Of a DNA stretch of 64,000 bases, positions 8,430 through 64,000 are shown in pieces. The DNA lies in assembly GCF_001434835.1 (NCBI RefSeq), contig NZ_AZDV01000006.1:62001-126000 (forward strand). Direction: 5' to 3'. The number at the start of each line of letters is the position of its first letter. Positions within the stretch are counted from its first letter, which is position 1. Source of the DNA: Levilactobacillus acidifarinae DSM 19394 = JCM 15949 (GTDB taxonomy: Bacteria > Bacillota > Bacilli > Lactobacillales > Lactobacillaceae). The notes below the pieces were generated by a model. The model was not told where the DNA came from. It did not search any database and was given only the letters and a program-made list of their open reading frames with translations. Both the position numbers and the translations under genes were made by a program.

Positions 8430-8695
8430 GTTAAAAAAGCCCTTCTCTCGCCGAAACGGGAAAAGGGCTCTATTTTTAAGTAGAACGGTACCACCTTTTT
8501 GTGACGGCCACAGCCACCACACTCATCACGGACAATCATCCGCTAGCCTGGTAATGGTGGCCGCCACGGTAGCTTAGAGGATTCACAATCTTTTCAGCAC
8601 CGAACTCAGAAATGATTTTCACTTACGCTAGACGGTCACTTCTCACTAAACGTGACTCACTGGGCATCGCTGCGCGCGTTACTTTTTTCTTCAAC
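8430..8695 (-). promoter_or_regulatory. T-box leader of brnQ, probable isoleucine specifier
   Basis: On the minus strand the T-box core AAGGTGGTACCGTT is at 8497-8484. It is followed by a terminator hairpin (AGCCCTT...AAGGGCT plus T run, about 8470-8433). Upstream is a Stem I region. The AUC triplet at 8616-8614, in the context GUGAAAAUCA, is the best specifier candidate and would read tRNA-Ile. Uncharged tRNA would favour antitermination. Confidence 0.9.
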
Positions 8696-8800
8696 GTTTT
8701 TCAAATATTGATTTTTATTATAAGCACTACTAAACGAAAAATCAATGGCAGTTCTCATCTTTTTTTAATTTTAAAATCATTTCGCTAACTTCCTCGCCTC

Positions 8801-8930
8801 CGGGACAGGTCGAAAACGGACTGGAACGGCGTGGGCACGGCTTCAAGCCCGTAGCCCAGGTCTTGAAGACCGACCTTTGTCTAAGCCGACTGAAAAATGC
8901 CAACTAAGACAAATTTCACTCCTGAGCCCA
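8801..8930 (-). repeat. Palindromic intergenic repeat A, copy 2
   Basis: Read on the minus strand this aligns along about 120 bp with the element at 6799-6933. The shared blocks include GAAATTTGT, TAGACAAAGG, CGGTCTT and AGCCGTGCCC. The long outer inverted repeat of copy 1 is not conserved here. It lies between the brnQ leader and rarA. Confidence 0.75.
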
Positions 8931-8943
8931 CCATCACTTTACC

Positions 8944-10275
8944 TTATTTATCCTGATGGTCCCGCCGCCACTTCTTCACGTAATCCAATCGCTTCTTGAA
9001 CAAGTCTTCGCGGCCCTGATCCGTGGGGTGGTAGTATTCGTGGCCCACCAAGGCATCCGGTAGGCTCTGCATGGCCGTCAGCTTATCCGGCGCATCGTGG
9101 GCGTACTGGTAGTCCTTGCCGTAATCCAGGTCGGCCATCAACTTGGTCGGCGCGTTGCGAATCTGCAACGGGACCGGTTCGTCACGGGTCTCCTGAACGT
9201 CCTTCTTCGCCGCCAAGCGGGCCTTGTAAATGGCGTTGGACTTCGGCGCCAACGCCAAGTAGATCACCGCTTCGGTCAGGTGCACGTCACACTCCGGCAT
9301 CCCCAGAAACTGACAGGCCTGAAAGACGTTGACCGCCACGTTGAGTGCATTCGTGTCGGCCAATCCGATATCTTCACTGGCAAACCGCACCAACCGCCGC
9401 GCGATGTACAGCGGGTCTTCGCCACCTTCTAGCATGCGCGACAGCCAGTAAATGGCCGCGTCGGCGTCACTGTTACGCATCGACTTATGCAGCGCGGAAA
9501 TGATGTTGTAGTGTTCCTCGCCGCTCTTATCGTATAGCACGAACTTCTGGGTGATCAGTTGTTTCAAATCGTCTCTGGTCACCGTTACTCGCCGATCAGT
9601 CTTTTGACCGTTAAGCACCGCCATTTCCAGCGTGTTTAAGGCCGTGCGGGCATCCCCGTTAGCAAACTCGGCCATCGCCCGTAACTCATCATCCCCCACC
9701 TGAACGGTCAAATCCGGAAAGCCGGCCGGGTTCTTCAACGCGTTTTGTAACAATTGCTCGATATCGGCGGTCTCTAAGGCCTTGAGCACGAAGACCTTAC
9801 ACCGCGACAACAGCGCCGAGTTGAGTTCGAACGACGGGTTTTCGGTGGTCGCCCCGATTAACGTGATACTGCCGCGTTCCACGTAGGGCAGAAAGGCGTC
9901 CTGTTGGGCCTTGTTGAACCGGTGGATTTCGTCAACGAAGACCAGGGTTCGTTCGCCGATTTGCCGGTCCCCCTCAGCCAGTTGCATGACCTTCTTAATC
10001 TTACTAATACTACTAATACTACTGTCGACCGCACTGAACCGGATAAACTTGGCCCGAGTTTGCTGGGCAATAATTTCGGCTAACGTGGTCTTTCCGACCC
10101 CCGGCGGCCCCCAGAAAATCATCGACGAGACCTGGTCGTTTTCAATCAGTTCCCGTAAGATTTTCCCGGCCCCTAACAAGTGCCGCTGTCCCACAAAGTC
10201 GTCGAGCGTTTCCGGACGCACCCGGTTGGCCAACGGCATCTGTTGGGGATTGTCGAATAACGATTCTTGTTCCAT
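8944..10275 (-). CDS. rarA: Replication-associated recombination protein A (AAA+ ATPase)
   Basis: A 443-residue AAA+ protein of the RarA/MgsA/WRNIP1 family. Walker A GPPGVGKT lies near residue 57, Walker B LVFVDEIHRF near 114, sensor 1 GATTENPSFELN near 140, and a C-terminal tetramerisation domain completes it. RarA acts at stalled replication forks together with SSB. The segment just after Walker A contains a 9-bp duplication giving SSISSIS (DNA about 10003-10022). It is followed 26 bp upstream in the same direction by a small conserved-looking gene, so the two may be co-transcribed. Confidence 0.95.
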   Translation of the reverse strand: MEQESLFDNPQQMPLANRVRPETLDDFVGQRHLLGAGKILRELIENDQVSSMIFWGPPGVGKTTLAEIIAQQTRAKFIRFSAVDSSISSISKIKKVMQLAEGDRQIGERTLVFVDEIHRFNKAQQDAFLPYVERGSITLIGATTENPSFELNSALLSRCKVFVLKALETADIEQLLQNALKNPAGFPDLTVQVGDDELRAMAEFANGDARTALNTLEMAVLNGQKTDRRVTVTRDDLKQLITQKFVLYDKSGEEHYNIISALHKSMRNSDADAAIYWLSRMLEGGEDPLYIARRLVRFASEDIGLADTNALNVAVNVFQACQFLGMPECDVHLTEAVIYLALAPKSNAIYKARLAAKKDVQETRDEPVPLQIRNAPTKLMADLDYGKDYQYAHDAPDKLTAMQSLPDALVGHEYYHPTDQGREDLFKKRLDYVKKWRRDHQDK

Positions 10276-10301: not shown

Positions 10302-10628
10302 TTACCGACCACCCGCGGCTTGATCCGCTTGTTGTTCCAAGTAAAGTTGCGTGGCTTCTGCGTTGGCCCGAAAATCCGCCACAAACGAGTCACTCATCGG
10401 GGCCACCGTGGCGGTTTGTTTGCCTAAAATATCAATCACGATGAGCTGGTTATCCTGCCACTTCGCCGTATCATAGTGGCCGTCTTCAATCTGGTCTAAA
10501 AACGTCTGAAAGGTATCGAGGACGCCCTGCCGAATCACGTCGTCTTCACTGACCTTTTCGCCTAACTTTTGGAGCTGTAACTGCCGCAATTGGACTTCAT
10601 CCATATCGGCTGGAATTTGAATAAACAT
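10302..10628 (-). CDS. Small acidic protein of unknown function, upstream of rarA
   Basis: A 108-residue soluble protein starting MFIQIPADMDEVQLRQLQLQ, with GGGGGAAC upstream of the ATG. It looks mostly helical, with an acidic, Gln-rich composition and no cysteine, signal peptide or membrane segment. It ends 26 bp before rarA on the same strand, so the two probably form a transcription unit. I do not recognise a domain. A role linked to RarA is possible but based on position alone. Confidence 0.7.
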   Translation of the reverse strand: MFIQIPADMDEVQLRQLQLQKLGEKVSEDDVIRQGVLDTFQTFLDQIEDGHYDTAKWQDNQLIVIDILGKQTATVAPMSDSFVADFRANAEATQLYLEQQADQAAGGR

Positions 10629-10787
10629 GGTTAGTTCCCCCAGTTTGTTTTTAATTTATTCTATCACTTCATTCTAACGAAAAGAACGAGACGAATCGTT
10701 ATCCTTAACCGTTATCTGGTGTAAACTAAAGATAATGCGCGGGCGCTTCCCGCGTAACGAGTTCGAATCGTTAAGGAGGGGCGTTTT

Positions 10788-42331: not shown

Positions 42332-42550
42332 GGCAGCCGTTAGGGCGAACCCTAACAGGATTTATTTTGGAATCCACATTCCCGCAAAATCAGACACATC
42401 ACAATACGGTGATCAAAAGTGCCCTGCCGCTCAAAATTCACCTAGCCGCTTGCGCGGACGTGATTGGCAAGCCAATCGCGCGTGATTTCTCGACTCATCG
42501 CATAAAAGTACTTTACCATATCTCTTCGCCCGATGCAAGACCCAAACAAA

Positions 42551-55492: not shown

Positions 55493-56791
55493 ATGCGCAA
55501 AATCGTTCAAGGCGCGTTGGTTTGTGGCTTGGGACTGAGTGCGTGGTTCGGCTTGACCGCCACGACCACCGCTCACGCCGCTAGTTACTCGGCCGCGCGC
55601 AGTCAATCCGTCAAGTTGGTCTGGCGCAAGAGCATGGGCCAAAAGACCTACACCGCGACCACCGGGGCCCGTTATTCCAAGCACCTCGGGACCAAGTACG
55701 GGAATAATTCAACCACGAAAACGGTGGTCTGGGTCACCGACGCCCACGAAAAACTCTACCGACCGGCCAAGGGCACGTCCGCCATTTACTATCACGTTAA
55801 AAGCAGCGACGGGAAGCTTCAGGGCTGGATCTGGCGCGGCTATCTGAAGACCACCCAGGCACACACCACCACAACTAAGGGGCAGTATTCCGCGGCCCGT
55901 TCTAATTCCGTCAAGTTGGTCTGGCGTAAGAGTATGAAGCAACACGCTTACGTTGCCACTACCGGTGCCCGCTATTCCCAGCACCTGGGAACCAAGTACG
56001 GTAACAACGCCGACACGGCCGACGTGACCTGGTTAACCGACGGCCACGAAAAGCTCTACCGTAAGGCTAAGGGCAGCTCAGCCATTTACTACCACGTCAA
56101 GAGTCGCGACGGCCAGCTCCAAGGCTGGATCTGGCGCGGTTATCTCAAGGCCCAAACTGCCGACAGCCAGGATAATCCCGCGACAACTACCAGCACGACC
56201 GACCTTAAGGCTAACCAATCCGCCAAGAGTTTTACGGTCCAGAAGAGTGCCAATAACGACGTACTCGGGCAGCAAAACAACGCCTTTACCCAACTAGTCA
56301 CCGCGCAACTGGTCAAGGACGGCTTCAAGGTCAGTCAGGACCTCGCCGGGGCCTACCAGGGACTCGCCCATATTGATGATTGGGACGGTGCCCTCACCAC
56401 GACCGCCTTCGCCGATAATTTTGATCCCTACGATCAAGTCACCGGCAAACTCAAGGCCAAGGACATCAACTTCCTTTACTCCAGTACCGCTGGTCGGGTG
56501 GGCTCCAGTCACGATAAGTTGACCGCTAATATGGACCCGTGGTTCCCCGAAGACATCCAACAAGTTTTGGGCACTAAGGTCGATCCAGATACCGGGGACG
56601 CTAAAACGCTGGTCAAGGATCTCGCTCAGTATTTAGAGCAGACCCTTAATCGCGATAAAATGAAGAACTTTTACTTAAACGCCGCCGTGGGTTATCCCGC
56701 TAGCATGGGCTACACCACCTACAACACCGATACGGACCTCTCCGTTGAGTTCCAACTGCTGTACACCAAGGTCGCCGACGGTAAACATTAA
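55493..56791 (+). CDS. Secreted surface protein with two 100-residue GWIWRG repeats
   Basis: A 432-residue protein. A signal peptide (about 1-28, ending AHA) precedes two near-identical modules of exactly 100 residues each, starting YSAARSxSVKLVWRKSM and ending LQGWIWRGYLK. The DNA copies are offset by 300 bp (55611 and 55911). A Thr/Asp-rich linker follows. The C-terminal domain of about 190 residues (AFTQLVTAQLVKDGF...TTYNTDTDLSVEFQLLYTKV) has no cysteine and no recognised family. The repeats look SH3/SLAP-like and may bind the wall. A strong AAAGGAGG site is present. Confidence 0.82.
   Translation: MRKIVQGALVCGLGLSAWFGLTATTTAHAASYSAARSQSVKLVWRKSMGQKTYTATTGARYSKHLGTKYGNNSTTKTVVWVTDAHEKLYRPAKGTSAIYYHVKSSDGKLQGWIWRGYLKTTQAHTTTTKGQYSAARSNSVKLVWRKSMKQHAYVATTGARYSQHLGTKYGNNADTADVTWLTDGHEKLYRKAKGSSAIYYHVKSRDGQLQGWIWRGYLKAQTADSQDNPATTTSTTDLKANQSAKSFTVQKSANNDVLGQQNNAFTQLVTAQLVKDGFKVSQDLAGAYQGLAHIDDWDGALTTTAFADNFDPYDQVTGKLKAKDINFLYSSTAGRVGSSHDKLTANMDPWFPEDIQQVLGTKVDPDTGDAKTLVKDLAQYLEQTLNRDKMKNFYLNAAVGYPASMGYTTYNTDTDLSVEFQLLYTKVADGKH
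55589..56143 (+). repeat. Tandem 300-bp coding repeat
   Basis: Two copies of one module inside the surface-protein gene are in register at exactly 300 bp. They are highly alike at protein level and somewhat diverged at third positions. Confidence 0.85.
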
Positions 56792-56844: not shown

Positions 56845-57262
56845 AGTATGGTCTCCGATGACCAGCTTACCCTTTGGCTCAAATTGCCAATTTTCGTTTC
56901 AATGGGTTGCAATTAACGATGACACAACTGATTTTGACCGCAAGCGACCCCCACCATCACCGCCATTCCCCCCGGTCGGCAGCGCTGGTGCTTCAAGCTG
57001 TTCAATAGTCATGCCTTTGTTAATGCCCCAAAACTATGTATTCCATAGAACAGTCTTACTATAGACTTCCTCGACCGCCCTGACAAGCTTTTAAATATTA
57101 CATTTGTCCTGGTCCGGGTCGGTTTGGGCCTAGACCATTTCCCGTACTAACCGACCATTAGTCAGTAACTAACCCGGCCAATACCGTTAGACCATCCACT
57201 CATTCTTTTACCGTGGTCAGCAAATTTCATCGCCGGATTCATTCTTTTTGACCGCTAAAAAA
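56845..57262. other. Intergenic region without a recognised feature
   Basis: About 420 bp with a C-rich stretch near 56940-56990. I see no ORF with a ribosome site, no repeat from elsewhere in the window and no clear hairpin. Confidence 0.4.
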
Positions 57263-57288
57263 CGGCCGCCGACTTTTGCCAACGACCG
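57263..57288 (-). terminator. Terminator of the 57.5-57.3 kb gene
   Basis: On the minus strand CGGTCGTTGGC pairs with GTCGGCGGCCG (with G-U pairs) around AAAA, followed by six T. Confidence 0.75.
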
Positions 57289-57303
57289 CTCACCATAAAT
57301 AGT

Positions 57304-57492
57304 TTAATTCCGGGTGCGTTTCCCGGAGAAGCTAAAGACCCCCATGAGGGTAAAAAGCAGGCCCGCGCCCACGCCACCGATATTATACGCGACGTTGAGA
57401 TAGACGTTTTCAAGCACCGTAATCATTAAAAACACGACGCCCAGCCAAAAGTAGAAATTCTTATAAAAAGTTCCGTTAAACCCAAATCTCAT
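57304..57492 (-). CDS. Small two-helix membrane protein
   Basis: A 62-residue protein (MRFGFNGTFYKNFYFWLG...). It has two hydrophobic helices (about 12-30 and 36-54) and a basic end SFSGKRTRN. GGGGG lies 9 bases upstream of the ATG, and a terminator follows. No family is recognised. It lies just downstream of the regulatory RNA candidate, on the same strand. Confidence 0.58.
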   Translation of the reverse strand: MRFGFNGTFYKNFYFWLGVVFLMITVLENVYLNVAYNIGGVGAGLLFTLMGVFSFSGKRTRN

Positions 57493-57630
57493 AGGTCCTG
57501 GCCCCCTTTGTCGTCTGCTTGCTGATCAGACGGATTAGCCCGTGTTCATCACTGAGCTTATCCTTATGGTATCGTGTTCATCCGGTCGCCACAATCAGGC
57601 ATTTCCCTGATTTCTGTCGAGTAAATCGAC

Positions 57631-57658
57631 AAAAAAACCGGAGTAACCACACTCCGGT
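57631..57658 (-). terminator. Terminator
   Basis: ACCGGAGT pairs with ACTCCGGT, followed by TTTTTT on the minus strand. Confidence 0.9.
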
Positions 57659-57899
57659 TCCCACTAGCATCATTAGAGTTTAAGCGTATCACAGTTTGTA
57701 GTCAGGAAACGTCGTCGCTCAAATTAGCTAAAACCTCAATATGTAGTATTGAGTTTGTTCAGTGCCAACCTCGAACAACACACCGTTATTCGAAGTATGA
57801 ATAAAATCTAATCGTCACAATTAGGATTTATTCACAAAATCAAGAAACTGCAAAACGCTTCTATTTCCCAGCTTCTCTGAAAGATTGATTGGTATTACA
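57631..57899 (-). ncRNA. Candidate structured RNA downstream of the sensor-kinase operon
   Basis: Promoter TTGCAA-16 bp-TATACT (57933-57906) and terminator (57658-57631) bound about 265 bases. No ORF with a ribosome site is present. Stems include GAATAAA...TTTATTC (12 of 14 pairs, around 57794-57831), CTCAATA/TATTGAG and CGAA/TTCG. A cre box overlaps the -35. Confidence 0.5.
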
Positions 57900-57905
57900 A
57901 CTCTT

Positions 57906-57933
57906 AGTATATCAGAGGTACCTATAATTGCAA
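57906..57933 (-). promoter_or_regulatory. Promoter of the candidate structured RNA
   Basis: On the minus strand TTGCAA (57933-57928), 16 bp, TATACT (57911-57906). Confidence 0.65.
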
Positions 57934-57942
57934 GCGCTTTCT
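57929..57942 (-). promoter_or_regulatory. CcpA cre-like site over the -35
   Basis: AGAAAGCGCTTGCA on the minus strand fits cre except for the first base. Its position on the -35 implies repression by CcpA. Confidence 0.55.
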
Positions 57943-58009
57943 TTACAATTATACATTTCTTAGATAAACAATAAGTTATTACTTAGTTTGTGAAATTTAC
58001 TTACCTCGC

Positions 58010-59329
58010 CTAAATCATCGGGAAGGTAACCACTAATCGGCCCCAATGTAATTTCGTTTCGAGCTGTAAGGTCACCGTGGGCGGTAACCCCTTCAAGACA
58101 TCGGCGTAGTCTAGCCCAAAATGGGCCCCCATCAATCGGTTCCCGTGAATGAGTTGGACGTCAGTGGGCACCGGAAAGGTTAGCTCAACCCACGCTAATT
58201 CCACAGATTCCGTAATTTTCAGATTAACCACCGCGGGTTCCAACGACGCCACCGCTCGGACAGTCGCCGGTAAGGCCTGGGTCAGCACGCGACCCACCCG
58301 TTGGTTAACCGCGACCGTCGCGATTAACGGCTTAGGAATATCAACAAACAGGTTGACTCCGAGCCGCTGCGCCAATAAATAATCGTGATAAATCCCGTAC
58401 TGCACGACGCCTTGTGGCATGTTATTCAAATCATCGATCGTTAAATCCGCGGCGTCACTGGTCTTCCACTTCGAGCGAATATCGATGTAGTACTGCCGAA
58501 ATCCCGCGTAATCCTTTTCGTTGAGGTAGCCCCCCAAGCCCAGCAGAATATTCTGATAGTCGTGGCGAAATTTACGCACCAACACCGACTGCCGTTGTAA
58601 CTCCGTCGTATACTGCTGATGATAAGCCTGATGGCGACGCTGACTTCGGGCGTGTTCTTGCTGCAAATGGGTCTGCAGTAAGAAATAGACGCTTACGGAG
58701 AAGCTCACCATGACCACCCCCGTGATGCCCACCAGAAAAAGCAGGTACCCCGTCGAACGATGTAATAACCGTAATAGCGACAAAAACGTCATGAAGACGC
58801 CCCACATCACCGTCATAAACAAGAGTAACCAATACTGGGTTCGGCGGCTAATCACGGATTGCATAAAATTTTCCATTGGGGCTTGCGTCCCTAACAACCC
58901 CAACGCAATCATTGAAAAAATCACCGAACTAAAGGTCAATAAGACGAGTACGCCTAACGTCGTCACGGTGAAGTGATACGACGTTAAGAGGGCCGTCAAC
59001 GTGACACTCACACTATTCACAAAGGCACTTAGTAGGTAGTCCAGAATCGAAACGGATAGGAAGGCCGGAATCAATTGCAGTCGTTTGCGATAACCCAGCC
59101 ACCCCAACTCAATTGCCAATAGGATCAGCACCGAAAATCCCCGTAGCCACGCCCAAATTTCCCACCTGGCTAATAAATTCAGTGCCGTAAACAAGACGGC
59201 TAATCCCACGTAAGCCCATTGAAACCAACGCGTCCGCAAAGTTGGAAACCAGTAAAATTGAAAGGAGATGAACCACGCACACATCACAAAGTTAGTGACC
59301 CAAAAATCGCTACCACTTGGTGTTAACAT
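58010..59329 (-). CDS. HPK10-like sensor with phosphoacceptor His but no ATP-binding boxes
   Basis: A 439-residue protein. About six membrane helices (residues 10-215) precede a coiled coil and a dimerisation segment VRKFRHDYQNILLGLGGYL, in which His256 is the expected phosphoacceptor of the Agr/Pln-type (HPK10) family. The C-terminal part should be a HATPase_c domain, but there is no NxxDNAxEA N-box and no GxGLG G-box. RVLTQALPATVRAV stands where the N-box should be. It is a paralogue of the neighbouring sensor (59347-60684). It is the last gene of a four-gene operon. Confidence 0.82.
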   Translation of the reverse strand: MLTPSGSDFWVTNFVMCAWFISFQFYWFPTLRTRWFQWAYVGLAVLFTALNLLARWEIWAWLRGFSVLILLAIELGWLGYRKRLQLIPAFLSVSILDYLLSAFVNSVSVTLTALLTSYHFTVTTLGVLVLLTFSSVIFSMIALGLLGTQAPMENFMQSVISRRTQYWLLLFMTVMWGVFMTFLSLLRLLHRSTGYLLFLVGITGVVMVSFSVSVYFLLQTHLQQEHARSQRRHQAYHQQYTTELQRQSVLVRKFRHDYQNILLGLGGYLNEKDYAGFRQYYIDIRSKWKTSDAADLTIDDLNNMPQGVVQYGIYHDYLLAQRLGVNLFVDIPKPLIATVAVNQRVGRVLTQALPATVRAVASLEPAVVNLKITESVELAWVELTFPVPTDVQLIHGNRLMGAHFGLDYADVLKGLPPTVTLQLETKLHWGRLVVTFPMI

Positions 59330-59346
59330 CTTGGTCGTCGCCTCCC

Positions 59347-60684
59347 TCAGTTCTGGCCGTTCTTAGGTAACACGATCTCCAACTGTCCCCAGTGTCGCTT
59401 AACCTGCAGGACCATACTGGTATCTAAGGTCAGATTCTGCGTGACCTGACTAAAGTCTAGCTGGCCTTGAGTGCTAGTCAGTTGATGGGCAGCCGTTACT
59501 TGCGCGTGATCACCCACCGGAAAGGTTAACTGAAAACGCACGTCGTACTGGGTGTCTAACAGCTCCAGCGACACCATGGCTGGTTGCATCTGGGCGGCGT
59601 AAGGCAACACGATGGGAAACGTTCGCGTGACGATCCGCGCTAATTGACGCAACGCTTCGATGGTCAACGTCAGGGGCTCCGGAGTGTTCACGTACATATC
59701 AACCCCGAGCCGCCGGGCTTCCAAATACTGATGATAAACTTCGTAACGAACCCCAATCTTAGGAATGTTGGCTAAATCATCAATCGTTAGATCCGCAGCG
59801 TTACTGGTCGTCCACCGCGAGCGAATATCGATATAGAGTTGCCGAAACCCCGCGTAGTCGTGCGCAGCCAGGTAGCCACCTAATCCCAACAACATGTTTT
59901 GGTAGTCGTGTTGAAACTGGCGGACTAACACCACTTGCCGGTGAAGTTCCGCCTCGTATTGATCGCGAAACCGTTTATCCTGAAGCTGTGCGTGGGTGTG
60001 TTCCACTTGAAGGTGACTCTGTACCAGAATATAGGCGCTTAGCGTAAAGCCCAACATCAAGACGCCCGAGATGCCCATGAGAAAGACGAGATACCCCACC
60101 GAACCGTCCAATGCTTGCAGGGAATATTCAAACAGACTAAAGACCAACATCATGATTGACATCAGACTCAAAAACAGATACTCCACATCCCGGCCTAACA
60201 TCGATTGTACCAAGTTCTCGATGGGCGCCTGAGTGGAGAACGCCCCCAGTAGCGTCAGGGTAAAGAACACGGAATCAAACGTTAACGTCACCGCATTTCC
60301 CATCAACGTATTCATAAAATGAACGTTGGTTAATAACATCGTGACCGTTAGACTGACCGTATCCACAAACTCGATCAGCAGGTACGCTAAAATCGTCATG
60401 CTCACAAAGACCGGTAAATAACGCCGATTGTGGGGAACCAATAACAGGCACTCGCCGCCCACTAACATTAAGGCCGGTAACGAAGTGAATAACGCATGCT
60501 GGGTAAACACCATGAACCACGAATCCACCGTGGCGTACGCCGCAGCTAATCCTAGAGCGTACGCGCTAAAGTGACGCACCCGCAATTGGGGCAACCAATA
60601 ATATTGAAAATAGACGAACCAAAACCCCATCACAAAATCGGCCAACCAAAAGCTAGGAACCGTTACGGCTAACACGCTAGTCAC
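59347..60684 (-). CDS. HPK10-like sensor with phosphoacceptor His but no ATP-binding boxes, paralogue
   Basis: A 445-residue protein with the same plan: about six helices, then LVRQFQHDYQNMLLGLGGYL with His259. The pseudo-ATPase domain reads ARIVTRTFPIVLPY where the N-box should lie and has no glycine-rich box. Long shared stretches with the next sensor (YIDIRSRWTTSNAADLTIDDL versus YIDIRSKWKTSDAADLTIDDL) show duplication. Its start overlaps the end of the upstream kinase gene by 8 bp. Confidence 0.82.
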   Translation of the reverse strand: MTSVLAVTVPSFWLADFVMGFWFVYFQYYWLPQLRVRHFSAYALGLAAAYATVDSWFMVFTQHALFTSLPALMLVGGECLLLVPHNRRYLPVFVSMTILAYLLIEFVDTVSLTVTMLLTNVHFMNTLMGNAVTLTFDSVFFTLTLLGAFSTQAPIENLVQSMLGRDVEYLFLSLMSIMMLVFSLFEYSLQALDGSVGYLVFLMGISGVLMLGFTLSAYILVQSHLQVEHTHAQLQDKRFRDQYEAELHRQVVLVRQFQHDYQNMLLGLGGYLAAHDYAGFRQLYIDIRSRWTTSNAADLTIDDLANIPKIGVRYEVYHQYLEARRLGVDMYVNTPEPLTLTIEALRQLARIVTRTFPIVLPYAAQMQPAMVSLELLDTQYDVRFQLTFPVGDHAQVTAAHQLTSTQGQLDFSQVTQNLTLDTSMVLQVKRHWGQLEIVLPKNGQN

Positions 60685-62011
60685 CTCCCGTCTTCGTTAG
60701 AATAATCGTAAAGTAGAGATGGTGCCGTTTGATCATAATTTGTAACGACGCGTTGGGGGTTTGGTCGACGATTTCTTGAACCGTACTCAACCCCAGGCCG
60801 TGGCCCCCACCCTTCGTGGTGTAACCGGCCCGCATAAATTGTGTGATGGCGGGTGGCGTTTCCGTGGAGATCGGATTAGCGACCGCCAATTCGACGGCAT
60901 CCGGATAATCCAAAATCGCACAGTAGATTTCGGGAATTTCCCCCACCAAAGGGGCCTCAATTGCATTATCCAGTAAGATTCCCAGTACTCGTAATAGTTG
61001 GACATTATTCATGGGAATCATCTGAATGGCCTCGGGAACCTCCAGGCGAAAATGCCAGTGGTGGTTTTGCGCCGCTAAGATCTTCTGAAACAGGAGATTT
61101 TTTAAGGGCGGATCGTTCAGCCGCTGTAAGCCATCAATTTCCAGCCCAGCTAATTGGTTAGTGGTTTGCCAGCGCGTGTTTAACGTCTGATAGTACCGCT
61201 CCAAACCCTGATAATCTTCCGCGTCTAAGTAATCCCCCAACCGGAGCATTTGATCTTGATACGTTCGTTTAAAATCCCGAATGTTTTGAACTTGATCCGA
61301 AATTCGCCGGTCGTACCGGCTTTGGAGCATCGCCGTTTGGTAATCGGCCTTCACCCGCTGGCGGATCATAAAGCTCCGTAAAAAGATAAACAGGCTGACT
61401 ACGATCAGACCAATCATGAGCACTTCAATTCCCAGAGCAAACGTCAACATGCCCTGGCTGAGGCTCATCTGGTGAATAATGGCCGACGATAGTCCCACTA
61501 ACACCGATAAACTCAGTAAGAGTGACAAGACGGTCCACTGTTCTCGGCGACTCAACGCCAGCTGATCGAGATTCCCCGGTTGGACGTGCATCCCCGCCAC
61601 TCCCAAGGAGATCAATGAGTAGACAATCAGCTGCACCGTCAGTCGGCTACCCACGCCCATGACGCTTTGTGCCACACCGTCCCCCCAGAGTTGCCGCATT
61701 AGTTCCCACGAGAAATCATTAACCAACACCACAATCAAAAAAATAATAATCGTAGCGTTCAGAAAAACCAGGGCTAAGTTCCGGTGGTGACGAACGAGGT
61801 AACTTAAGGCCGCTAGTGGGGGAATAACCAAGCTCCAGCCTTCCCCAATCACCGCCGGGAGCAACGCCCAACCAACCCATTTAACGGGCAACGTCCAATT
61901 TTGGGGCCGAATTTCCCCAATCCAGATCGTCCAGAACCACTGCATGGTCATCGCCAAGACAAAGTTAACCCAGAAATTTTGATCAAATAAATGAAAAGTC
62001 ACGTTCATCAC
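60677..62011 (-). CDS. HPK10-like sensor with intact ATPase boxes but no phosphoacceptor His
   Basis: A 444-residue protein. About six helices are followed by a dimerisation segment IRDFKRTYQDQMLRLGDYL, aligned with RKFRHDYQNILLGLGGYL of its neighbours. Arg249 replaces the phosphoacceptor His and Thr250 the following Asp. The HATPase_c domain looks functional: N-box RVLGILLDNAIEA (Asp348, Asn349) and G-box TTKGGGHGLGLSTV (about 398-411). It sits 4 bp after the response regulator gene and overlaps the next sensor gene. It could bind ATP but not autophosphorylate in the normal way. Confidence 0.85.
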   Translation of the reverse strand: MMNVTFHLFDQNFWVNFVLAMTMQWFWTIWIGEIRPQNWTLPVKWVGWALLPAVIGEGWSLVIPPLAALSYLVRHHRNLALVFLNATIIIFLIVVLVNDFSWELMRQLWGDGVAQSVMGVGSRLTVQLIVYSLISLGVAGMHVQPGNLDQLALSRREQWTVLSLLLSLSVLVGLSSAIIHQMSLSQGMLTFALGIEVLMIGLIVVSLFIFLRSFMIRQRVKADYQTAMLQSRYDRRISDQVQNIRDFKRTYQDQMLRLGDYLDAEDYQGLERYYQTLNTRWQTTNQLAGLEIDGLQRLNDPPLKNLLFQKILAAQNHHWHFRLEVPEAIQMIPMNNVQLLRVLGILLDNAIEAPLVGEIPEIYCAILDYPDAVELAVANPISTETPPAITQFMRAGYTTKGGGHGLGLSTVQEIVDQTPNASLQIMIKRHHLYFTIILTKTGGD

Positions 62012-62015
62012 CCTA

Positions 62016-62771
62016 TCATTCGTTTAAATGCTTCTGCACCAGGGTTTTTACTTCATGGAATCGGCGCGTCGCAACGTCGGTCTGATCGCCGTTCGGAAAG
62101 ATCAACCGGCGCGTCGTCGACTCAATCCCGCTAACGTTATCGAGGTTGACCAAAAAACTTTTGTCCGTGCGGTAGAGGTCCGGATATTGGTCCGCAATAT
62201 CCTTTAGAAATCCCGGAAATTCCACCAGTTGGTTGGCGGCGTGTACCGACACCTTATGCGGGGTGTCCGCGGTCGACACGAAATAAACGTCGCCCATCGG
62301 TAAGCTAAAAGTTCGGCCCCCAATGGTGTATTGGAACAAATTTTCCGTATTTTCCAGATAATTCGTATAGCGTTGATACCCGTAATCCACGTTCTCGCGC
62401 AGCTTCTGATCGATCTGTTCCCGTCCTAAATCCTTGACCACAAAGTCCATCGGTTCCACCTTACGTTCAAACGTCAATAACGCCATCTCTGAGTGCGTGG
62501 TCACGAACACGATCTCCGCAAACCCCAGCTGCTGCCGAATCGCAATGGCAGTTTCCAACCCGTTCATATCTTCTGCCGGAAATTCGATATCTAAAAACAA
62601 CAGGGCATATTTCGGCGCGTCCGCCTCCAATGCCGCTAACAATTCTTTGGGACTGACCGTCGCCAGCTTAATCTGCATGTTGTAATCGTTAATCATGATG
62701 TACCGCTGAACAACTTCCTGGTAGTGCGCTAGTTGCTCGGGGTTATCTTCACAGAAATAGACCGATAACAC
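62016..62771 (-). CDS. LytTR-family response regulator (AgrA/PlnC type)
   Basis: A 251-residue protein. The receiver domain has acidic pocket CEDN (residues 7-10), phosphoacceptor Asp61 in LLFLDIEFP, Thr in VFVTTHSE and Lys in FVVKDLG. It is followed by a C-terminal LytTR DNA-binding domain from about residue 145 (YTIGGRTFSLPMGDVYFV...SFLVNLDNVSGIE). Translation starts at GTG 62771 with GGGAGA upstream. It is the first gene of the operon. Such regulators bind paired direct repeats and usually activate quorum-sensing or bacteriocin genes; no clear repeat pair is seen upstream. Confidence 0.92.
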   Translation of the reverse strand: MLSVYFCEDNPEQLAHYQEVVQRYIMINDYNMQIKLATVSPKELLAALEADAPKYALLFLDIEFPAEDMNGLETAIAIRQQLGFAEIVFVTTHSEMALLTFERKVEPMDFVVKDLGREQIDQKLRENVDYGYQRYTNYLENTENLFQYTIGGRTFSLPMGDVYFVSTADTPHKVSVHAANQLVEFPGFLKDIADQYPDLYRTDKSFLVNLDNVSGIESTTRRLIFPNGDQTDVATRRFHEVKTLVQKHLNE

Positions 62772-63318
62772 CGCTATCGTCTCCCTTCACTAAACACCCT
62801 TAATGTAACGTGATTTAGAACTAGTTGCAATCCTTTTCATGGGTAAAACACACTTATACTTTACATTTTGTGCAGGTGTGGTAATTTGCTGGATTCCCCG
62901 TCAAATCACACAATCCCCAGACCATGTTCCCTGACCACCATCGCCCGTGCCCGTCGTCAAGCCCCTCAAGGACAAAAAAAGTACCGCCCCCATTGGACGA
63001 TACTTTAAGCAGATTATTCCATTAACTAGTAGATAAAATTTAGCACTCCCCCAAGTTCTTAATTTTAATCGCTGACTACTTTGGTAATAATCCGTTATTT
63101 ATTGAAGCTTACTCCTTAGCACATTGTGACGTCCCAAAAAAGTTCCTCAACTAGGTGTTTACAAAGCGGGGCGCATGTTCCCCACTTGGTTAGGAACCAA
63201 GTCCTGAAGTTGTTGGTCCCTTCCAACTGCATTAAGAATATCATGGAATTAACCATTCAGACGATAAGACGCAAAAACGTCATTTAATGCACGTTAAAGT
63301 GCCTATTTTCACAACAAT
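62772..63318 (-). other. Promoter region of the sensor operon and 3' part of an upstream transcript
   Basis: On the minus strand TATAAG near 62858-62853 may be the operon -10. The terminator at 62974-63006 ends a separate upstream transcript. Near 63187-63204 a perfect CTTGGTT/AACCAAG hairpin is seen. No further coding region is recognised. Confidence 0.4.
62974..63006 (-). terminator. Terminator upstream of the sensor operon
   Basis: On the minus strand AAAGTATCG pairs with CGGTACTTT (one G-U or mismatch), followed by TTTT. Confidence 0.72.
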
Positions 63319-63396
63319 TCAATTGTGCCTAATTAGATAGGACACAAAACCAACTAAAATAACCAAATTAGCCAGGACCAAACAACCTGCAATCAA
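63319..63396 (-). CDS. Candidate 25-residue hydrophobic peptide
   Basis: A short frame starting at TTG 63396, with GGGGAG 8 bases upstream. It encodes MIAGCLVLANLVILVGF followed by VSYLIRHN. The peptide is one membrane helix with a basic C-terminal end, similar in shape to type I toxin peptides or small membrane regulators. A long untranslated tail leads to a terminator at 62974-63006. No homologue is recognised and it may be fortuitous. Confidence 0.35.
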   Translation of the reverse strand: MIAGCLVLANLVILVGFVSYLIRHN

Positions 63397-63584
63397 AACT
63401 AACTCTCCCCTTTAGTGACGCCTTAGGAGCGGCTTGGACCCAGACCGTTTGGGGGTAGCGTTCGTAGATTAAGCCGGCGGTTTCGGTGGAATGTGGCAAC
63501 CGTCACGTTGCGGGGAGTCCACTTGTCAAAGCTCGTAGCGACTGGTTAGCTTCACAACGGTTTCCTTCCTTCTACAAACTGCGT

Positions 63585-63597
63585 TAAACTTAGTTTA
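63585..63597. promoter_or_regulatory. Palindrome in the greA-like leader
   Basis: TAAACT-T-AGTTTA is a perfect 6-bp-arm palindrome about 90 bp upstream of the start. A stem TGGGAC/GTCCCA enclosing AGCC/GGCT follows at about 63604-63638. Confidence 0.45.
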
Positions 63598-63686
63598 GAG
63601 ATGTGGGACGTTAGCCGAAACCGGCTGATTCAGTCCCATCAACTCTAAGTCAATATTTAATTATTTTAATGCAAGGGGTGTCGAAA

Positions 63687-64000
63687 ATGGCCAACCAACG
63701 AGACTTTAACCCCATCACAGCGGCGGGGTACCACCAAATCGAACAAGAAATTGCGGCCCTGGAGGCCGACCGACCACATAAGATTGCTAGTCTAGCGGAG
63801 GCCCGGGCACACGGCGACCTCTCCGAGAATGCGGAGTACAGCGCCGCTAAACGTGACCTGCGTCACCTGGAAAGCCGGCTACGTTTTCTCAACAAGGAAC
63901 TCCAATACGCCCGTATCGTCACACCCAGTGCCGATCAAGTCGTCGAACTGGGTAAGTGGGTCACCCTCGAATTTCTGGACGACCACGATACCGTGACCTA
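63687..64000 (+). CDS. GreA-family transcription elongation factor (cut by window edge)
   Basis: The first 104 residues of a GreA-like protein, with AAGGGGTG upstream of ATG 63687. The N-terminal coiled coil is clear: ITAAGYHQIEQEIAALEADRP, the signature ARAHGDLSENAEYSAAKRD containing the acidic tip, and the second helix. The C-terminal FKBP-like domain begins near WVTLEFLDD and runs off the edge. GreA rescues backtracked RNA polymerase by stimulating transcript cleavage. Lactobacilli often have more than one paralogue, so it may not be the main GreA. Confidence 0.88.
   Translation, partial: MANQRDFNPITAAGYHQIEQEIAALEADRPHKIASLAEARAHGDLSENAEYSAAKRDLRHLESRLRFLNKELQYARIVTPSADQVVELGKWVTLEFLDDHDTVT

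Follow-up and report, generated by a model that had tools for sequence, protein, structure and literature searches.

Can a receptor histidine kinase be divided so that ATP is bound by one protein and the phosphorylated histidine is carried by another? The question is raised by an operon in a 64,000-nucleotide stretch of Levilactobacillus acidifarinae DSM 19394 = JCM 15949 (contig NZ_AZDV01000006.1, positions 62,001 to 126,000; hereafter the window), which encodes a LytTR response regulator (RR) and three sensors, referred to as S1, S2 and S3. A typical receptor histidine kinase is a homodimer whose single type of subunit is complete; AgrC is reported to autophosphorylate in trans within its dimer, and AgrC/AgrA, PlnB/PlnC and ComD/ComE contain one complete kinase each. 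Our reading, to which we assign a probability of about 0.75, is that the operon encodes an AgrC-type (HPK10) histidine kinase that is split between proteins and whose layout resembles that of the Fas system. The genes are flanked by two conserved RNAs, one downstream (D-RNA) and one upstream (U-RNA), which were missed in a preliminary description of the locus made from its letters.

Kinase motifs of the three sensors

The four genes have the following positions in the window; frames, order, coordinates and the shared minus strand are as the preliminary description gave them.

62016..62771, minus strand: RR, LytTR response regulator (Pfam Response_reg and LytTR), predicted phosphoacceptor Asp61
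60677..62011, minus strand: S1, ATPase-bearing AgrC-like sensor, Arg249 replacing the His (codon 61265-61267)
59347..60684, minus strand: S2, sensor bearing the acceptor His259 (codon 59908-59910), whose former ATPase domain lacks the motifs
58010..59329, minus strand: S3, apparent lineage-specific duplicate, also His-bearing, with His256 (codon 58562-58564)

RR and S1 are separated by 4 nucleotides, S1 and S2 overlap by 8 and S2 and S3 are separated by 17. S1 carries the N-box LLDNAIEA from residue 346 and the G-box GGGHGLGLS from residue 401, but has Arg249 (CGA) at the position of the phosphoacceptor. S2 and S3 hold His259 and His256, both encoded by CAC, within F-x-HDYQN, but have neither an N-box nor a G-box; at the N-box place of the alignment they read TFPIVLPYAA and ALPATVRAVA, respectively. 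The complementary losses first noticed from the motifs are thus confirmed by motif reading and alignment together. The complete HPK10/AgrC-type set, with F-x-HDYxN, N-box and G-box in one protein, is found in none of the three.

Profile searches gave a similar division. At E ≤ 10, S1 matched Pfam HATPase_c_5 (2.3e-9) and HATPase_c (5.6e-8), and S2 and S3 had no Pfam match at that threshold. The NCBIfam AgrC model aligned with S1 at 1.9e-42 (residues 66-432), with S3 at 3.8e-17 (residues 65-370) and with S2 at 2.8e-8 (residues 96-285 only). By this model and by the Pfam LytTR match of RR, the proteins belong to the same sensor and regulator families as AgrC/AgrA, PlnB/PlnC and ComD/ComE. A structure model of S2, built from a 38-row alignment, has a mean predicted local distance difference test (pLDDT) score of 81; its best matches are the AgrC cytoplasmic structures 6e52 and 6e95. 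Because it also matches the AgrC ATP-binding domain 4bxi (template-modelling score of 0.68 on the target), the dead domain of S2 probably keeps the ATPase fold.

The locus across Levilactobacillus

The genus of the window was searched in 35 genomes with S2 as the query. Matches were obtained in 34, including all 34 of the genomes that are at least 90% complete, and the sole genome without a match is a 72%-complete assembly. Named records yielded 39 loci, comprising 30 close relatives (45-82% identity) and 9 distant AgrC-like kinases of other genera. The window and 33 other loci were each read with 9-17 kb of surroundings, and the counts out of 34 given here refer to this set.

S1 adjoins S2 in all 34 loci, and S1 together with at least one His-bearing sensor is open in every one, such that the complementary losses co-occur throughout. 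Two sensors are present in 27 loci and three in 7, giving 41 His-bearing sensors in total; L. brevis ATCC 14869 has the two-sensor form and L. zymae DSM 19395 the three-sensor form. The genus comparison gives good support to a split kinase acting by trans-phosphorylation, as the preliminary description had proposed, and none to its view of three sensors as the basic design. Independent loss of single members was not seen except for the duplicate third sensor, which is present in some loci and absent from others.

HDYQN is kept in 41 of the 41 S2/S3 sequences, and GxGxG occurs in none. A loose [DN]N[ASV] pattern is present in nine, either as DL[DN]NV.. right after the His region or as VPNNAQLD, and never at the N-box place; ATP-binding motifs, which would have contradicted the proposed division, were sought without success at the homologous place of all 41. 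LLDNA and HG[LQ]GL are present in all 34 S1, and the acceptor column of S1 holds Gln in 24, Arg in 5 and His in 5, which leaves 29 without the acceptor His. The residue at +1 is acidic in 0/34 and that at +4 is Asn in 0/34. A displaced acceptor was not found either: residues 215-305 contain no other His that is universal among the 34 S1, the commonest being present in 18. Except in the five loci whose S1 carries the His, ATP-binding and phosphoacceptor motifs lie on separate proteins across the 34 loci.

Among S2/S3, the His region has a mean pairwise identity of 0.81, compared with 0.52 for the sensor and 0.49 for the former ATPase domain, and the value rises to 0.98 over the ten residues from 261. 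The N-box of S1 has a conservation of 0.92. This pattern, in which the His region of S2/S3 and the ATPase of S1 stand out, is the selection that trans-phosphorylation would leave. The RR active-site residues Glu8, Asp9, Asp61, Thr91 and Lys113 are kept in 31 of the 31 full-length orthologues; these statistics cover 31 of the 34 loci, L054 and L056 (broken or interrupted frames) and L060 (contig end) being left out. Broken frames, affecting RR in L054 and L056 and the first His-bearing sensor in L084 and L113, might be taken as signs of a decaying locus composed of functionless pieces of an old kinase pair, a view that we find scarcely credible in light of the open S1 and at least one open His-bearing sensor in all 34 loci, the intact HDYQN and RR active sites and the flanking RNAs that are kept with them.

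Some loci depart from the common arrangement. The RR gene of L056 is split by about 1.3 kb into two pieces (8617-9003 and 10334-10750), with both sensors open and both RNAs present; that of L054 lies in two frames. The first His-bearing sensor of L. namurensis DSM 19117 is found in two overlapping frames (L084 7434-8754; L113 6624-7944) and is open in L075, a close relative. In L. brevis CD0817 (L076 2965-5760, also L100), RR and S1 stand about 2 kb apart, a spacing found at no other locus whose RR is open.

Trees were computed for the window and the named loci only, with 39 rows for S1, in which the outgroup rows were labelled His by hand, and 36 rows for S2/S3, one of which, the first sensor of L113, is a 377-residue fragment of a broken gene. 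Five loci with two His-bearing sensors, the window and four named ones, are represented in the unrooted S2/S3 tree, in which long branches were flagged. Their ten sequences all lie to the same side of a branch with full support (100*), suggesting that the third sensor arose by one duplication of the His-bearing partner. The sequences also suggest that the gene order was swapped between the lineage of the window, L. zymae and L. suantsaii and that of L. namurensis and L. spicheri. The four named S1 that bear the His come from L. spicheri and three species neighbouring one another and occupy two separate places in the S1 tree, and both retention and reversal are possible explanations of their His.

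For comparison, S1 and S2 were aligned with 47 rows of AgrC-like sequences from other genera, representing 46 distinct proteins; these are the best-matching loci of the searches and not all kinases of their genomes. The His box, N-box and G-box are all present in 47 of the 47, so complete kinases form the background and the split is, as far as sampled, a feature of Levilactobacillus. In the family, S2 matched 37 of 301 genomes at E ≤ 1e-8, 15 of them from the genus of the window. A search of 72,556 plasmid records with S2 gave no match, and spread of the locus on plasmids was rejected on this result.

Cross-talk between kinases is known in general, and the ATPase of S1 could serve another role. 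S2 and S3 might therefore be phosphorylated by a different, complete kinase, with S1 acting only as a regulatory or scaffold subunit. The genome of the window was searched with PF14501, which gave five matches. The S1 profile is fitted by S1 alone, and the other four contain SHE[LM]RTP boxes of the classical type; the S2 query finds only S1, S2 and S3 in this genome at E ≤ 1e-8. The PF14501 pattern thus shows no obvious substitute AgrC-type kinase, kinases missed by PF14501 not having been sought. Together with the constant adjacency of S1 and S2 and the conservation of the S1 N-box, this makes an outside kinase very unlikely.

Proposed phosphate flow and known split kinases

From this division of motifs we infer the following route for the phosphate. 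S1 would bind ATP and join a heteromeric complex with S2 or S3, in which it would phosphorylate its partner in trans, on His259 in the case of S2 and on His256 in that of S3; the phospho-His would then pass its phosphate to Asp61 of RR. The former ATPase domains of S2 and S3 would persist as folds without catalytic function. The third sensor, as a duplicate, would provide a second possible partner and input, and one regulator might then receive two inputs, as the preliminary description had suggested. Free S2 or S3 may in addition dephosphorylate RR, because HDYQN fits the HE/DxxN phosphatase motif (PMC3591291). The control kinases have the same kind of box, however, so this evidence is permissive only.

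Several points weigh against a split kinase with D-RNA as its output. The first two concern S1: 5 of the 34 carry His at the acceptor site, although without the +1 acid or the +4 Asn, and the S1 tree needs four changes among His, Gln and Arg within the genus, so the loss of His in S1 was not clean. The next two concern the structure models, as the S2 folding alignment held 7 complete kinases among its 38 rows and may favour an AgrC-like fold, and the S1 model is weak (pLDDT of 68). Finally, the promoter of D-RNA looks strong alone and overlaps a site resembling the cre box, so control of D-RNA by RR is put forward as a possibility. The five S1 with His at the site, along with the fit of HDYQN to the phosphatase motif, would also suit an arrangement in which S2 and S3 are mainly phosphatases or decoy receptors and S1 activates RR otherwise, through a non-His residue or, in some species, through its His. 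We judge that arrangement improbable: it is opposed by the 29 S1 that have no His at the site or any universal substitute in residues 215-305, and by the want of the +1 acid and +4 Asn in every S1. The division of one kinase between S1 and its His-bearing partners remains the preferred reading.

The preliminary description contrasted the locus with the Agr and Pln systems and overlooked a closer precedent, FasB/FasC/FasA (PMC12675982). In FasBCAX of group A Streptococcus, FasB is an ATPase-bearing kinase and FasC a His-bearing pseudokinase, and the two heterodimerize; two-hybrid tests detected FasB-FasC contacts but no self contacts. FasB supplies the kinase activity, whereas FasC contributes the essential His246 and can do without its own kinase domain. 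Phosphorylation of FasA occurs on Asp60, and the small RNA FasX is encoded beside the fas genes (PMC12675982). The same two-kinase layout is reported in a related streptococcus (PMC12345147). The Levilactobacillus locus resembles FasBCAX in pairing two AgrC-like membrane sensors, one ATPase-bearing and one His-bearing, with a ComE-like/LytTR regulator, and in having a small RNA, here the predicted D-RNA of 34/34 loci, directly beside these genes. It differs in gene order (RR-S1-S2(-S3)-RNA versus fasB-fasC-fasA-fasX), in the third sensor of 7/34 loci and in a second RNA upstream. Moreover, FasC has a recognized HATPase domain, whereas Pfam recognizes none in S2 or S3, and FasB has candidate His residues, whereas S1 has no acceptor His in 29/34 loci. 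As the comparison covers layout, we call the system Fas-like in layout and not a Fas orthologue.

Two other systems are comparable in part. CheA3/CheA4 of Rhodobacter sphaeroides is a split kinase in which ATP binding and the phosphorylated His are likewise on different proteins (PMC3591291); unlike S1 and S2, these are of the chemotaxis CheA type and lost whole domains, and are not AgrC-type membrane sensors. The GacS/RetS heterodimer of Pseudomonas aeruginosa also places two different sensor kinases in one complex, but RetS inhibits GacS and there is no division into ATPase and His (PMC12189002, PMC12675982). The agr systems differ from the Levilactobacillus locus, which appears to split the kinase and has no recognized pheromone gene. 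The AgrB profile PF04647 had no match in the genome of the window, a weak control given that the same search matched only 1 of 14 control genomes, and no small peptide or pheromone gene was recognized near the operon. Quorum sensing of the agr type was rejected as an explanation on these two results.

Split kinases of this kind have been described at least twice before, one of the descriptions being very recent. What appears to be new is the form kept through the genus, together with the duplication of the partner and the flanking RNAs, and among the open-licence titles listed in literature searches none concerned the locus or its RNAs. Across a whole genus of food bacteria, the two half-reactions of a kinase are apparently kept on separate genes with clear sequence signatures. 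In theory, a split kinase whose free His-bearing protein is a phosphatase can be ultrasensitive or bistable (PMC3591291), and the system could be used to test this prediction, as well as the FasBC model outside a pathogen (PMC12675982); because the His-bearing partner is duplicated, the addition of inputs can be tested directly as well. We also advance, tentatively and with some doubt, a modular split receptor in which one ATPase subunit would serve a set of His-bearing membrane subunits that can replace one another and respond to separate signals, the free ones would act as phosphatases to form a bistable switch and the flanking RNA pair would be the output. If true, the genus would illustrate the division of a complete receptor kinase, followed by a multiplication confined to its input side.

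RNAs flanking the operon

The RNAs and the promoter elements near them have the following positions.

57631..57899, minus strand: D-RNA, about 269 nucleotides, start inferred from the promoter, terminator CCGGAGT..ACTCCGGTTTTTTT; from alignment, covariation and fold
57906..57940, minus strand: putative D-RNA promoter, -35 TTGCAA (57928-57933) and -10 TATACT (57906-57911); by consensus resemblance only
57929-57940, minus strand: cre-like 12-mer AAAGCGCTTGCA overlapping the D-RNA -35; by consensus resemblance only
62802..62837, minus strand: putative operon promoter, -35 TTGCAA (62825-62830) and -10 TACATT (62802-62807); by consensus resemblance only
62826-62837, minus strand: 12-mer AAAAGGATTGCA overlapping the operon -35; by consensus resemblance only
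62974..63227, minus strand: U-RNA, core 62974-63126 ending in a terminator, 5′ end guessed from conservation

A conserved non-coding stretch with promoter and terminator follows the last sensor in 31 of the 31 aligned loci (30 named ones and the window), and in the window this promoter has the form TTGCAA-16-TATACT. In a 30-row alignment (A5), at least one two-sided compensating change is observed for 19 of 45 predicted pairs. A5 lacks L099, whose terminator pattern was missed although the RNA is present; alignments A6 and A7 hold 23 of the 30 A5 rows and A8 holds 21. The fold of the window copy (57628-57890, terminator included) has a z score of -5.26. A model of the D-RNA 3′ part (R2) matches all 34 loci, once each. 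Among 395 genomes of the order it matched 7, all from the genus of the window, and none of the other 388; a 5′ model matched 15 of 301 genomes of the family, again all Levilactobacillus, with no match in the remaining 286. Both scans used stricter filters, by which weak matches can be lost, and the unmatched genomes may include Levilactobacillus. A coding function was rejected for D-RNA: among the frames listed, at most three for any copy, 7 of 30 copies, including that of the window, have none of at least 20 amino acids, which excludes a shared reading frame.

U-RNA shows two-sided changes in 13 of 24 predicted pairs (29 rows) and contains an invariant CTTGGGGGAGTGC inside 63043-63056. Its model (R3) matches 33 of the 34 loci, the miss being at a contig end. 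In the family, R3 gave strong matches of 84-140 bits in 15 genomes of the genus and weak ones of 23-36 bits in 40 of the 286 others. Eight of these 40 weak matches were read; none contains the motif, and by eye they resemble gene ends with terminators. U-RNA outside the genus was therefore rejected and the weak matches were treated as false. Neither RNA has an Rfam match, at the gathering threshold in the window or at E ≤ 5 in 57000-64000, where the only two hits are at chance level and lie elsewhere. The operon is thus accompanied by two structured RNAs unmatched in Rfam, one or both of which may be its output. A strongly conserved AACGTGC..TGACGTTTTTGC block lies upstream of U-RNA (about 63270-63300, minus strand) in the window and its relatives, and is a possible operator.

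By analogy with FasX in FasBCA, D-RNA is the most likely output of the system, and RR would control it directly downstream of the sensors. The promoters bear on this assignment. The 12-mer AAA[ACG][CG]GNTTGCA is found at the -35 of 29 of 30 D-RNA promoters and of 13 of 30 operon promoters, counts that include the window, leave out L095, which lacks the regulator, and are not independent because the loci are orthologous. Of the 42 matches to this 12-mer on both strands of L085-L114, 40 are D-RNA and operon promoter sites, the window being excluded. In most relatives the 12-mer of the D-RNA promoter reads TGAAAACGCTTGCA, which is similar to the CcpA cre box. Catabolite control of D-RNA therefore appears as likely as control by RR.

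D-RNA might then be independent, possibly under CcpA, and a mere neighbour of the sensor genes, with the output of RR lying elsewhere; this is compatible with a split kinase. The near-consensus -10 and the overlap of the cre-like sequence with the promoter in most relatives favour such independence, and inspection by eye found no convincing LytTR direct repeats upstream of D-RNA. Set against it are the range and fixed adjacency that D-RNA shares with the sensors (34/34 loci; 0/388 and 0/286 other genomes), the recurrence of its -35 12-mer at the operon promoter and a neighbourhood that is the same as that of fasX. We regard an independent D-RNA as a serious possibility, if not the favoured one, and retain D-RNA as the candidate output.

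Two further features of the window were recorded. A protein encoded at 55493-56791 on the plus strand, without a Pfam match above the cut-off, has an N-terminus that by eye resembles a signal, with two near-identical repeats close to that end. The small RNA Ref68/Lacto-3 (Rfam, 86.4 bits) lies at 42369-42502 on the minus strand and is separate from both D-RNA and U-RNA.

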